A stretch of DNA of 7,871 bases from positions 6,402-14,272 of the forward strand of contig MGQK01000088.1 in assembly GCA_001797815.1 (NCBI GenBank). The letters are read 5' to 3'. Below, piece by piece: positions 4,743 to 7,467 of this stretch. Position 1 is the first letter of the stretch; the number at the start of each line of letters is the position of its first letter. The translations under genes were made by a program, and so were the position numbers. The stretch is from Deltaproteobacteria bacterium RBG_13_61_14. GTDB lineage: Bacteria; RBG-13-61-14. Below the pieces are notes generated by a model. That model did not search any database and had not been told where the DNA came from. It saw only the letters and a program-made list of their open reading frames with translations.

Positions 4743-4748
4743 GATAAG

Positions 4749-4903
4749 GTTCACAGTTCACGGTTGGTGGTCGGCGCTTCACAGATTCCGCGACCGGGGC
4801 GGTCGCGGCTACACCGGACACTTGACACGTGACACTTGACACATTGAGCGGTTCACGGTTCACAGTTTCATGTGACCCTGACACCCATGACACCTTGACA
4901 CCT
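4749..4903. repeat. Degenerate period-7 tandem repeats in the MFS 3' intergenic region
   Basis: Clusters of heptamers of two related types lie here. The GGTTCAC/AGTTCAC type is at 4749-4765 and again at 4850-4869. The GACACTT/GACACGT type makes four near-perfect units at about 4818-4844, with looser copies at 4878-4902. The whole 4743-4949 stretch contains no plausible gene. Its other visible element is the hairpin at 4788-4808. The TTGACA inside the units resembles a -35 box but has no matching -10 or downstream plus-strand gene. Confidence 0.75.
4788..4808. repeat. Perfect intergenic hairpin (8-bp stem), related to that at 5517
   Basis: CCGCGACC (4788-4795) and GGTCGCGG (4801-4808) form a perfect 8-bp GC-rich stem with a 5-nt loop. 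CTAC follows it directly. No T-tract follows, so it is not a typical intrinsic terminator, although it lies 45 bp beyond the MFS stop and could still protect the 3' end of that mRNA. Its right arm plus tail (GTCGCGGCTAC) recurs as GTCGCAGCTAC at 5538-5548. Confidence 0.65.
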
Positions 4904-4949
4904 CTCTTGGTTCGCGGTTGATGGCCAGGAAAGGTGCGGCGGGAATTCA

Positions 4950-4989
4950 GCTAAGAGAGGAACAGGGCGTAGAGCGGATACTTAAGCTC
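4950..4989 (-). pseudogene. Stranded 3'-end remnant of the 5599-6357 membrane-protein gene
   Basis: These 40 nt match 5598-5637 at 37 positions in the same orientation. Read on the minus strand they encode ELKYPLYALFLS followed by TAG, exactly the C-terminus of the intact gene at 5599-6357. The three differences (CTT/CTC, CCG/CCC, TAC/TAT) are all silent third-position changes. Similarity stops immediately upstream of the GAG codon and one base (two at most) past the stop codon. No further upstream coding sequence for this copy exists in the window. It is therefore either the original gene end displaced by the hicBA segment or the end of a deleted paralogue. Confidence 0.8.
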
Positions 4990-4997
4990 TAATTGGG

Positions 4998-5016
4998 GGG
5001 ACACCATACTTAATTC
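4998..5016. repeat. REP-like 19-mer, copy 1 (GGGACACCATACTTAATTC)
   Basis: This matches the motif at 5483-5501 at 18 of 19 positions in direct orientation. It lies 4 nt from the hicA stop, while the second copy lies just upstream of the hicB promoter, so the two copies bracket the toxin-antitoxin pair. The reverse form (GAATTAAGTATGGTGTCCC) resembles, from memory, a widespread intergenic motif linked to REP-associated tyrosine transposases. That link is unverified here. Confidence 0.65.
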
Positions 5017-5020
5017 TGCA

Positions 5021-5206
5021 TCAGAATTCAGGAATTTCCAGGCTGCGGCAGATTTTCTGGGCTAGTTTATTGGGGATCTCGATATGGCGGGGGATGGCTT
5101 CGATGTGGCCGGTTTGGGGGTTGCACCAGAGGGAATGGGAGCGGCCTTCCCTTTTGAGATAGCATCCATTTCGGCGCAAATGCCGGAGCAGAGCCTCCCG
5201 CTTCAT
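5021..5206 (-). CDS. hicA: HicA family mRNA interferase toxin
   Basis: 61-residue ribosome-independent mRNA endonuclease of a type II toxin-antitoxin system, with a double-stranded-RNA-binding-like fold. The sequence follows the family pattern: MKREALLRHLRRNGCYLKRE, then GRSHSLW (21-27), in which H24 sits at the position of the catalytic His, then NPQTG and EAIPRHIEIPNKLAQKI, which matches the conserved P-x-H segment and last helix. The ATG at 5206 is chosen because it begins at the family's usual N-terminus and overlaps the hicB stop by 4 nt (ATGA), giving translational coupling. A longer open frame reaching 5314 lies within hicB and is not needed. The active-site His is present, so the toxin is probably functional. 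The gene ends 4 nt from a REP-like motif. Confidence 0.9.
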   Translation of the reverse strand: MKREALLRHLRRNGCYLKREGRSHSLWCNPQTGHIEAIPRHIEIPNKLAQKICRSLEIPEF

Positions 5207-5418
5207 CGGACGGTGAGGGTCTCCTGAATGGCGTCTTCGGGTAGACCTTGAGCGGCGTCTTTGCGGCGGTCTTCCAGAATCAGGTGGATAGCCTCGGACA
5301 AACTCTTGCGGCATTGCGCTTTAGTGCGGCCTTGGCCGTTGGCCCCCGGAACTTCGGGGCAGTAAGCAATCCACCACTCACCGTCCTTTTCGATAATCGC
5401 GGTGAATTCATTATGCAT
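5203..5418 (-). CDS. hicB: HicB family antitoxin, short form
   Basis: 71-residue antitoxin expected to bind and block HicA. It has the partial RNase H-like HicB fold: MHNEFTAIIEKDGEWWIAYCPEVPGANGQGRTKAQCRKSLSEAIHLILEDR. This includes the characteristic E-x-x-W-I-A-Y-C-P-E-V-P-G-A-N-G-Q-G segment (about 14-31) and the following helix. There is no room for the C-terminal helix-turn-helix or ribbon-helix-helix domain found in longer HicB proteins. Autorepression, if any, would need another mechanism. The antitoxin is encoded first, the reverse of the hicA-hicB order common in enterobacteria. The start at 5418 has an ideal Shine-Dalgarno, AAAGGAGGT (5425-5433), at 6-nt spacing, consistent with antitoxin being made in excess. 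Confidence 0.9.
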   Translation of the reverse strand: MHNEFTAIIEKDGEWWIAYCPEVPGANGQGRTKAQCRKSLSEAIHLILEDRRKDAAQGLPEDAIQETLTVR

Positions 5419-5424
5419 CCGAAT

Positions 5425-5433
5425 ACCTCCTTT
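5425..5433 (-). promoter_or_regulatory. Strong Shine-Dalgarno of hicB
   Basis: The minus-strand sequence AAAGGAGGT is fully complementary to the 16S anti-SD core and lies 6 nt before the ATG at 5418. hicA has no comparable site and depends on the 4-nt overlap. The expected outcome is more antitoxin than toxin per transcript. Confidence 0.8.
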
Positions 5434-5451
5434 CCGGTCTCGCTATTTTCA

Positions 5452-5479
5452 AGGATATCATTCGCCAGGCCTAAGTCAA
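5452..5479 (-). promoter_or_regulatory. sigma70 promoter for hicBA
   Basis: On the minus strand, TTGACT (5479-5474, 5 of 6 to the -35 consensus) is followed after 16 bp by TATCCT (5457-5452, 4 of 6). The -10 is preceded by TGA, an extended -10 motif. Transcription would start near 5445, giving a leader of about 27 nt that contains the hicB Shine-Dalgarno. The -10 overlaps the palindrome GATATC (5454-5459), a possible but unproven operator half-site. Confidence 0.6.
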
Positions 5480-5482
5480 GTT

Positions 5483-5501
5483 GGGACACCATATTTAATT
5501 C
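5483..5501. repeat. REP-like 19-mer, copy 2 (GGGACACCATATTTAATTC)
   Basis: This direct repeat of the motif at 4998-5016 has one mismatch. It sits 3 bp beyond the -35 box of the hicBA promoter. With copy 1 it encloses hicBA within about 500 bp. It lies between the 9-bp inverted repeat at 5502-5510 and the promoter. Confidence 0.65.
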
Positions 5502-5516
5502 CTTAGCCCACTCACC

Positions 5517-5542
5517 GCGACCCCGCTGGAAAGCGGAGTCGC
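5517..5542. repeat. Intergenic hairpin (11-bp stem, one mismatch, GGAA loop)
   Basis: GCGAC-C-CCGCT (5517-5527) pairs with AGCGG-A-GTCGC (5532-5542) around GGAA. The right arm continues into AGCTACC, echoing the GCTAC tail of the hairpin at 4788-4808. No T-tract is present on either strand. It lies between the end of the membrane-protein gene and the hicBA promoter and might attenuate read-through or represent a dispersed repeat. Confidence 0.65.
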
Positions 5543-5597
5543 AGCTACCCATTCGTTTATGTTTATGATTACGTCTAGGTTCACGTTAAGATTTTGG

Positions 5598-5637
5598 GCT
5601 AAGAGAGGAACAGGGCATAGAGGGGATACTTGAGCTC
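5598..5637. repeat. 40-bp direct repeat, copy 2 (3' end of the membrane-protein gene)
   Basis: This is the functional copy of the 40-bp repeat whose other copy is at 4950-4989 (37/40 identical). It covers the last 12 codons and the TAG stop of the minus-strand gene, plus one base beyond. The distance between copies, 648 bp, defines a segment holding hicBA, both REP-like motifs and one hairpin. Confidence 0.85.
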
Positions 5638-6357
5638 GACCCCCAACCGCAGCGCCAGGGCGGGGATCAACCCTCGGCGCAGGTAAACTTCGCCGAAGAC
5701 CAGGTTGGAGACAAAGGCGAGCCCCAGGCAACTGAGAGTGAAGAGGTTGAGCCCGGGTTGCTGCTGCAGCCGCTCCAGGCCGACCCAGGCCTCGAGCACG
5801 CCAAAGCCGGCCACGGCCAGAGGAGCGGGCCAGGGGTGCCCGGCAAAGCGGAGCCAGCGCAAGAGATAGACCCCGATGGTGACCAGCCCGAACCGGGCGA
5901 TGACCTCCGGCGCCAGGGCCCGGCCCAGGGTCTGGGCCAGGGCCCAGCCAGGCTGGCCGGGAAAGTATTCCGGGATCCTGGCTCGCAAGTCCATGTCCAG
6001 CAGGAAATAGGCGACCGGCGCGGTCAGCAGACCCGCGGCCAGATAGAGAGCGAAGAATTTGCGGTCCCAACTCAAGACCTTTAGCCCGGGCAGGCCCAGG
6101 CGGGGGGTGTAGAGGAAACCCACCAGCGCGCAGAGCAAAGAGGCGGCGAAGATCAAGAGCGCATGGAACAGGGTCAGGGCCATGGTCTGGTCGGGGTTGG
6201 GAGGCTTGGCCAGCATCGGCGCGATCAGGTGGACGGTCTGGTAATACATCATGGGGAAGGCGGCGGCGGCGCAGGCTCCGGCCAGGATGATCGCCGAGCG
6301 GACTCCCTCGCGCACGTCGGAGGGCGACAGCCGCACCGGTTGGCGGGATGGGGGCAT
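5599..6357 (-). CDS. Multi-pass membrane protein, possible catalytically dead CPBP-like fold
   Basis: 252-residue hydrophobic protein with about six to eight membrane segments (clear ones near residues 20-35, 58-82, 100-120, 150-168, 178-192 and 203-222). I do not recognise a named family with certainty. Its C-terminal half follows the layout of CPBP (Abi/Rce1-type) intramembrane proteases. APEVIARFG (149-157) lies where EExxxR is expected but lacks the first Glu. FGVLE (185-189) replaces FxxxH. LRLGVE (236-241) replaces the final HxxxN. If the fold is right, the metal-binding residues are missing and it would be a non-proteolytic relative. The ATG at 6357 has AAGGTGA just upstream on the minus strand. 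The 3' end is duplicated at 4950-4989. The codons are GC-rich like those of the neighbouring core genes. It faces xerC divergently. Confidence 0.7.
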   Translation of the reverse strand: MPPSRQPVRLSPSDVREGVRSAIILAGACAAAAFPMMYYQTVHLIAPMLAKPPNPDQTMALTLFHALLIFAASLLCALVGFLYTPRLGLPGLKVLSWDRKFFALYLAAGLLTAPVAYFLLDMDLRARIPEYFPGQPGWALAQTLGRALAPEVIARFGLVTIGVYLLRWLRFAGHPWPAPLAVAGFGVLEAWVGLERLQQQPGLNLFTLSCLGLAFVSNLVFGEVYLRRGLIPALALRLGVELKYPLYALFLS

Positions 6358-6433
6358 GCTTCACCTTAAATCAGGCCGGCCGCTCCTGTCAAGACGCACC
6401 GCTCCCGAATCCAAGGGTGGGCGAGGTTTTCTT

Positions 6434-6463
6434 ATTATACAATTATGAAATGTGAAATGTGAA
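6434..6463 (-). promoter_or_regulatory. Probable sigma70 promoter for the membrane-protein gene
   Basis: On the minus strand a perfect -10, TATAAT (6439-6434), follows TTCACA (6463-6458, 5 of 6 to TTGACA) after 18 bp. The -35-like box is part of a heptamer repeat (TTCACAT twice). The start near 6427 would give a leader of about 70 nt to the ATG at 6357. The AT-rich patch stands out from its GC-rich surroundings. Confidence 0.5.
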
Positions 6464-6475
6464 GACCTGACCCCA
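6447..6475. repeat. Heptamer repeat joined to a REP-like AAGACCTGACCCC motif
   Basis: GAAATGT occurs twice in tandem (6447-6460), followed by GAAGACCTGACCCCA (6461-6475). The reverse form, TGGGGTCAGGTCTTC followed by a TTCACATT-type repeat, resembles from memory a motif found near REP-associated tyrosine transposases in many bacteria. It lies between the divergent promoters of the membrane-protein gene and xerC. Confidence 0.55.
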
Positions 6476-6482
6476 ACTCTGC

Positions 6483-6537: not shown

Positions 6538-7467
6538 TTGGACGACTGGATCGCCCGGTTTCAAGACTATCTGCGCCTGGAAAAGAATGCCTCGCCGGCC
6601 ACGATCAAGGCCTACTTGGCCGACCTGGAGCGGTTCCAAAAATTCCTGGCCGAGAGCGATCCCGACCGCGGTCAAAAGCCGCTGGATCCCGCTTCGGTGG
6701 ACCGCAAGCTGATCCGGGCCTTTGTCGGCCGGCTGCACCGCGACCTGGAGGCCGCCAGCATCGAGCGGGCCTTGGCCGCGCTCCGCGTCTTTTTCCGTTT
6801 TTGCCAGCGGGAGGGCGCGGTTTCCCTGAATCCCGCGGCTAATGTCCCGACTCCCAAGAAGAAAAAGCATTTGCCCGGGGTGCTTTCGGTGGATGAAGTG
6901 GTTGGGTTGTTGCTTAAGCCGGGGGATGACACTATCTTAGGCCGCAGGGACCGGGCCATCCTGGAATTATTTTACGCGAGCGGGCTTCGGCTCTCCGAGC
7001 TGGTGGGGTTGAACCTGGAAGACGTGGACTTGAAAGAGCGGATGGTCCAGGTGATGGGCAAAGGGAGCAAGCAGCGCAAGGTGCCGTTCCACACCCTGGC
7101 CGGCCGGGTCCTGGCCGATTACCTTAAGGACCGGCCCGCCTTTTTGAAAGGGCGCAGCGACGCGGCCGACGAGCACGCGCTCTTTTTGAGCCGGCAGGGC
7201 CGACGGATCAGCGTAAGCCGGGTCCAGAAAATGCTGGACCACCACCGGCTCCGCGCCGGCTTCAACCGCAAAGTGAGCCCGCACCAGCTCCGGCACTCCT
7301 TCGCCACGCACCTGTTGGAGGAGGGAATGGATATCCGCAGCATCCAGGAGCTTTTGGGCCACGAGAGCCTCAGCACCACCCAGCGCTACACCCAGGTGGA
7401 CTTGAAACAATTGATGAGGGTTTATGACGATGCACACCCCCGCGCCAAAAAAGCCAACCCCGATTAG
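6538..7467 (+). CDS. xerC: Tyrosine recombinase XerC
   Basis: 309-residue site-specific recombinase that, with XerD, resolves chromosome dimers at dif. The N-terminal SAM-like core-binding domain is residues 1-100 ([30 protein letters not shown]). The catalytic domain is about 112-300. The full catalytic set is present with XerD-like spacing: R151 (SGLRLSEL), K175 (GKGSKQRK), H249 and R252 ([15 protein letters not shown]), H275 ([11 protein letters not shown]) and the nucleophile Y284 (QRYTQV). The start is a TTG at 6538 with AAGGGGAG (6523-6530) 7 nt upstream; no ATG fits the N-terminus. It overlaps hslV by 38 nt, a xerC-hslV arrangement also known from Firmicutes and other phyla. This pairing and the typical XerC length make it the housekeeping enzyme rather than a phage or island integrase, although it lies only about 0.9 kb from the hicBA cassette. 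Confidence 0.92.

Follow-up and report, generated by a model that had tools for sequence, protein, structure and literature searches.

A small hicBA toxin-antitoxin (TA) module is bracketed by the duplicated 3′ end of a putative membrane-protein gene, and only one of the two copies is attached to a gene. We prefer the reading, with a probability of roughly 0.55, that the module entered at this gene end by recombination between two diverged versions of the end. The same anatomy was observed around TA modules of unrelated families in the same genome, and a case in Nitrospira has both an empty site and filled sites among its relatives. The window, i.e., the whole stretch of DNA that was analysed, comprises 7,871 nt (positions 6402–14272 of contig C88). 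The draft genome to which it belongs has 132 contigs and a size of 4.74 Mb. It was probably assembled from a metagenome, and 2.30 Mb of it, about half, was read for the genome survey.

The two copies are direct repeats of 40 nt, with identity at 37 of the 40 positions and a start-to-start distance of 648 nt. The pair has an E value of 1e-10 in a self-BLAST of the window, in which the next local repeat has an E value of 0.05, and the 40-mer occurs nowhere else in the 2.30 Mb that was read. Both copies read ELKYPLYALFLS-stop on the minus strand, and the three differences between them (CTC/CTT, CCC/CCG, and TAT/TAC) are all synonymous. The repeat search and the codon counts confirmed the description of the pair given in the initial annotation, including its positions, the lack of a gene body at the distal copy, and homology that extends only one base beyond the stop codon. 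The membrane-protein gene is a single-copy gene in this genome, and a search of 98 genomes gave one relative, a 33% match in the order-mate G001. No close relative of the window locus, and hence no empty site or donor, was found in the 98 genomes or in a contig scan with the membrane protein.

The segment between the copies contains the hicBA frames only; no integrase or transposase frame was found within its 608 bp. The stop codon of hicB overlaps the start codon of hicA (ATGA), and the invariant G and H of HicA are retained. The PF07927 match to hicA was scored on a longer frame (5021–5314). The HicA domain is above the cut-off and the match of the overlapping HicB-like frame is below it; the pair is a putative hicBA, and its toxin-antitoxin function is predicted. 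The ORFs and the Pfam matches thus agree with the earlier description of a minimal hicBA cargo without an integrase, placed at a duplicated gene end while the gene itself is intact. A tyrosine recombinase (6538–7467, PF00589) is located outside the insert, directly before an hslV-like frame, and looks like the chromosomal XerC.

Table 1. Features of the window (window positions) and repeat pairs retained in the genome survey (contig only)
Feature	Location	Strand	Basis or remarks
Orphan gene 3′ end (own stop codon present, gene body absent)	4950..4989	-	37/40, three synonymous differences
Segment between the gene-end copies: REP, hicA, hicB, REP, 96 bp spacer	4990..5597	.	608 bp; ORFs, profile search
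REP-like repeat (taattggGGGGACACCATACTTAATTC), abuts the orphan copy at 4989/4990	4990..5016	+	70 genomic copies; context alignment
hicA toxin gene, 61 aa from the ATG overlapping hicB	5021..5206	-	PF07927, 30.7 bits (cut-off 27)
hicB-like antitoxin gene, 71 aa	5203..5418	-	UPF0150, 21.2 bits, below the cut-off of 27.3; no NCBIfam match
Second REP-like copy, slightly diverged, beyond hicBA and oriented like the first	5482..5501	+	repeat search
Copy of the duplicated 3′ end that is attached to the gene, ELKYPLYALFLS-stop	5598..5637	-	repeat and codon comparison
252-aa putative membrane-protein gene, 3′ end duplicated	5599..6357	-	ORF; no Pfam/NCBIfam match
hicBA	C88 (window)		40-bp repeat, membrane-protein gene 3′ end
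hicBA	C16		35-bp repeat; host frame without Pfam match
BrnT with BrnA/CopG-like partner (brnTA)	C53		58-bp repeat; host gene DsbA-like
AF2212 and PIN	C81		71-bp repeat
HEPN and nucleotidyltransferase (HEPN-MNT)	C44		48-bp repeat; POR-family gene, module upstream, 5′ end duplicated
ParE-like toxin with small partner frame	C82		37-bp repeat, not a gene end
23S rRNA IVP gene, same anatomy	C62		112-bp repeat; host an Fe-S protein by weak matches
PilZ-domain gene, non-TA	C3		30-bp repeat
Repeat pair at contig edge	C66		

To describe the recurrence of this anatomy in the same genome, local direct repeats of 28–350 bp at distances of 250–2500 bp were listed, with pairs inside one reading frame excluded. 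There were 37 such pairs in the 2.30 Mb, and nine were left after a stricter filter (exactly two copies and a gap of less than 1.1 kb). Six of the nine bracket TA modules, which were identified by Pfam and belong to unrelated families (Table 1), and most of these six repeat part of a protein gene. PemK with DUF2281 (C75) and a weak PIN match (C109) are bracketed by repeats that are themselves dispersed. A TA cargo is not required, as a PilZ-domain gene (C3) and a tRNA-Phe end (C114) show a similar anatomy. At C3 (L034, 18451–19518), the end of a sulfatase-like gene, ALGYIQK-stop, is repeated past the PilZ-domain gene, and the upstream codons of the two copies differ while reading alike. At C114 (L164, 252–1351), a 67-bp copy of the 3′ part of the tRNA-Phe gene is located behind an insert of 950 bp, which contains a DAPG-hydrolase-like gene and no integrase.

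Duplicated gene pieces around hicBA are also found in other genomes. Three genomes of the phylum contain 18 HicA loci with full flanks, and seven of them are bracketed, compared with 13 of 400 random positions (Fisher 4e-6), which are an imperfect control, being mostly coding and all from one genome. With a low-complexity case and a 24-bp case left out, five loci are bracketed (Fisher 5e-4). In the sister genome G001, hicBA follows recG and has a 50-bp piece of recG behind it at 98% identity; the duplicated piece comes from about 37 codons before the end of recG. Another hicBA in G001 follows a TIM-barrel gene and is accompanied by orphan pieces of 62 and 129 bp, whose order is reversed. Past this module (L191, 1020–2036; contig C94), the terminal 62 bp of the gene are met before the 129 bp that precede them in the gene. 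Two successive, nested insertions at one gene end would fit this arrangement. A set of 25 named HicA loci from one scan included 19 with flanks, two of which are bracketed, compared with none of 151 shifted positions (p 0.012). The first is the recG locus again, in uncultured delta proteobacterium AlinenSediments_bin-1115. The second belongs to Nitrospira sp. CTRL-LIN-TMP-bin1 (L223), where a 120-bp end of a BT1/MFS gene is duplicated around hicBA.

The Nitrospira locus allowed a search for the empty site. The gene of L223 was joined to the flank beyond the orphan, and this joined sequence was queried against 79 genomes of the genus. One genome, G133, aligns over the joined flanks (1–1472) in one piece with 83% identity and is a directly aligned empty site. 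In three others (G121, G154, and G156), the next gene follows approximately 380–404 bp after the gene without an orphan, and these sites look empty by spacing. Orphan ends are located 0.8–1.6 kb away in G155, G151, and G161, the last of which has two; they start at query positions 475–511 and end at about the stop codon. The orphan ends in several relatives point to the BT1/MFS gene end as a recurrent insertion place in Nitrospira, where the insert content was read in L223 only.

The differences between the copies bear on their origin. Scripted codon counts were made for ten gene-derived repeat pairs, with linked sites treated as independent. The differences at codon positions 1, 2, and 3 number 10, 9, and 33, respectively; 33 are synonymous and 19 are not. 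The excess at the third position has a p value of 9e-6 against the fraction of 1/3 expected for random decay of one copy and of 0.035 against the fraction of 1/2 expected for a constrained gene copy and a free orphan. The longest identical run was compared with 5000 shuffles of each pair. An identical core longer than in the shuffles was found in L223 (64 nt, 0/5000), C62 (58 nt, p 0.0002), and C53 (38 nt, p 0.04), and the cores are not significant in the other seven of the ten pairs. In L223, C62, and C53, the differences cluster around the identical core. Such a pattern would result if a crossover within an identical stretch had joined two coding versions that had diverged.

The initial annotation had proposed that a small segment entered at the gene end and that silent-only divergence implied two separate lineages. 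Entry of a small segment is supported by the recurrence in this genome, in the sister genome, and in Nitrospira. The pooled differences, and the identical cores of three pairs, are best read as a sign that the diverged gene end arrived with the module, although this is not proven. The pooled third-position share (33 of 52) favours separate lineages, whereas the three changes in the window cannot decide the matter. The chance that all three would sit at third positions in one random copy is about 0.03 by our estimate, and the silent changes may be regarded as weak evidence on their own. The longest identical run of the window pair is 19 nt (core test, p 0.49), which is uninformative by itself.

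In the mechanism that we propose, the incoming DNA would have been a small circle, or a fragment behaving like one, that carried hicBA together with the terminal 40 bp or so of this gene as found in a different lineage. It could have been joined to the chromosome by one crossover where the two versions are identical over a short distance; alternatively, homologous pairing on one side may have been combined with illegitimate joining on the other. The product would have the order of intact gene, hicBA, and spare gene end running into the native flank. We infer that another lineage supplied one of the copies and that the host carried out the insertion by its own recombination. TA modules would be over-represented among the inserts because addiction would keep them once they had landed. 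Homology-facilitated illegitimate recombination and Campbell-type insertion-duplication are laboratory phenomena in transformable bacteria. They are alike in that short homology on the incoming DNA leads to an insertion that duplicates the homologous stretch; however, the present case is inferred from natural genomes and is tied to TA modules.

A different explanation, which we regard as possible but rather unlikely, is an insertion with a long target duplication (35–130 bp) and subsequent divergence, in which the gene copy would change silently only and the orphan freely. Such duplications, variable and of the order of 100 bp, have been described for restriction-modification (R-M) systems, which are addictive like TA modules (Nobusato et al. 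2000; Furuta et al. 2010, as cited in PMC3031569 and PMC3874152). As far as they are summarized in the citing papers, the R-M insertions resemble the present loci in being small addiction modules without a transposase, in having direct repeats of this size, and in having a repeat-free empty site in a relative, as in the Nitrospira case. The repeat lengths are similar (35–129 bp across the loci), several pairs have only one to three differences, and the Nitrospira empty site without duplication fits this explanation equally well. However, the third-position excess is above the expectation for a free orphan, and the differences in L223, C62, and C53 are not spread over the repeats as independent divergence would have them. 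The cargo here is also a TA module, in most cases the repeat is a gene end and the host gene stays intact, and the copies differ mostly at silent positions, with an identical core in some pairs, which points to a second lineage; these are differences from the R-M insertions as they are cited. Moreover, the mechanism of such duplications is itself unexplained.

The initial annotation had likened the arrangement to the strategy of integrative islands. Islands with a tyrosine integrase insert at tRNA or guaA 3′ ends, so that the insert has the gene end on either side and the gene remains whole. The window shares with them a duplicated 3′ end and a whole host gene, and this architecture fits the comparison. 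However, the insert is only about 0.6 kb and has no integrase, each module in the survey has a different host gene, and one duplicated piece is a 5′ end and one an internal stretch. Because no integrase is present, the mechanism is probably different from that of the islands.

A site-specific recombinase acting in trans, either Xer-like or from a lost island, with the gene end as the att site, is a doubtful alternative. It would account for the use of gene 3′ ends, for the tRNA-Phe 3′ end duplicated around the 950-bp insert in the genome of the window, and for the Nitrospira gene end, which was struck repeatedly, once twice in tandem, with variable orphan starts and a fixed end at the stop codon. 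However, none of the inserts that were read encodes a recombinase, and the duplicated 5′ end at C44 and the internal piece of recG do not suit a fixed att site. Homology on both sides of the identical core also argues against it. The remaining portion of a tandem paralogue, decayed or deleted except for its last 40 bp, had been named as an alternative in the initial annotation and would yield silent-only divergence, but we consider it very unlikely. There is no further copy of the gene in the genome, the same coincidence would be needed around hicBA, brnTA, PIN, HEPN-MNT, and other modules, and the Nitrospira relative has a simple empty site; as a general cause it is unlikely because the anatomy recurs across TA families, in the sister genome, and in Nitrospira. 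An assembly artefact or a chance repeat, conceivable in a draft of many contigs, is scarcely credible given copies that differ, an E value this low, only two occurrences, and a pattern that recurs in independently assembled genomes.

A dispersed REP-like repeat, AATTCGGGGGACACCATACTTAATTC, adjoins the orphan. In a search of the genome with at most two mismatches, GGGACACCATACTTAATT gave 70 copies, and the reversed-pattern control gave none. The copies often form close inverted pairs, which could form hairpins (e.g., in L042, L058, and L061). As in a REP-flanked composite, hicBA is bounded on both sides by two of the 70 copies in the same orientation. The PIN pair of C109 lies between 133-bp repeats that contain REP, and the mazF-like module of C75 has REPs nearby. 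Most of the other TA brackets are far from any REP; therefore, REP copies alone are disfavoured as the cause, and the REP at the window locus is probably a local circumstance. Given the copies that flank hicBA, a role for repeats is also possible. Elsewhere in the genome, a hicA 3′ end without a body is located beside a REP copy (C125:4900–4967; L012, 1501–1568), and the two resemble the hicA end and REP in the window at 85%. The gene end is either a decayed relative of the window module or another orphan gene end.

A 2020 review (PMC7167474) describes the movement and integration of solitary chromosomal TA modules as unelucidated, and in the open-licence literature we found no paper in which duplicated gene ends are described around TA modules. 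The ccdO157 module of E. coli, located at folA/apaH, is likewise a solitary TA module between two chromosomal genes, and REP sequences are known at its site (PMC7167474). It replaces the folA-apaH spacer without duplication, and K-12 represents the empty site. In contrast to the window, no gene-end duplication was found at any of ten E. coli TA loci (ccdO157 and nine loci of K-12). Gene-end duplication is therefore one route among several for TA insertion.

We suggest, tentatively and with less confidence than for the window itself, that these loci belong to widespread mini-elements without an integrase. Each would consist of a TA module or another small gene whose sole attachment site is part of a host gene end; it would spread between related genomes by the homologous recombination of its hosts and could be excised again via the duplicated ends. 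If this is true, a small gene needs no enzyme of its own to enter a chromosome at the end of another gene and can do so without breaking that gene. The spare gene end is a visible scar. Together with an empty site in a relative, it makes TA integration countable in any set of genomes and testable at the bench.

The window contains a further candidate insert. A type II restriction-modification pair is located at 347–2630 (NCBIfam NF052465 above the cut-off; REase_II and MTase_II in PADLOC). With a GC content of 49% between neighbours of 67%, it looks like another small foreign insert. No long repeat was found around it in the repeat search of the window. In addition, the intergenic regions 4743–4930 and 6421–6478 are built of short recurring phrases (ttcacggttcacagt, gacacttgacac, and gaagacctgacccc), and phrases of a similar kind are located between genes in other stretches that were read from the genome.
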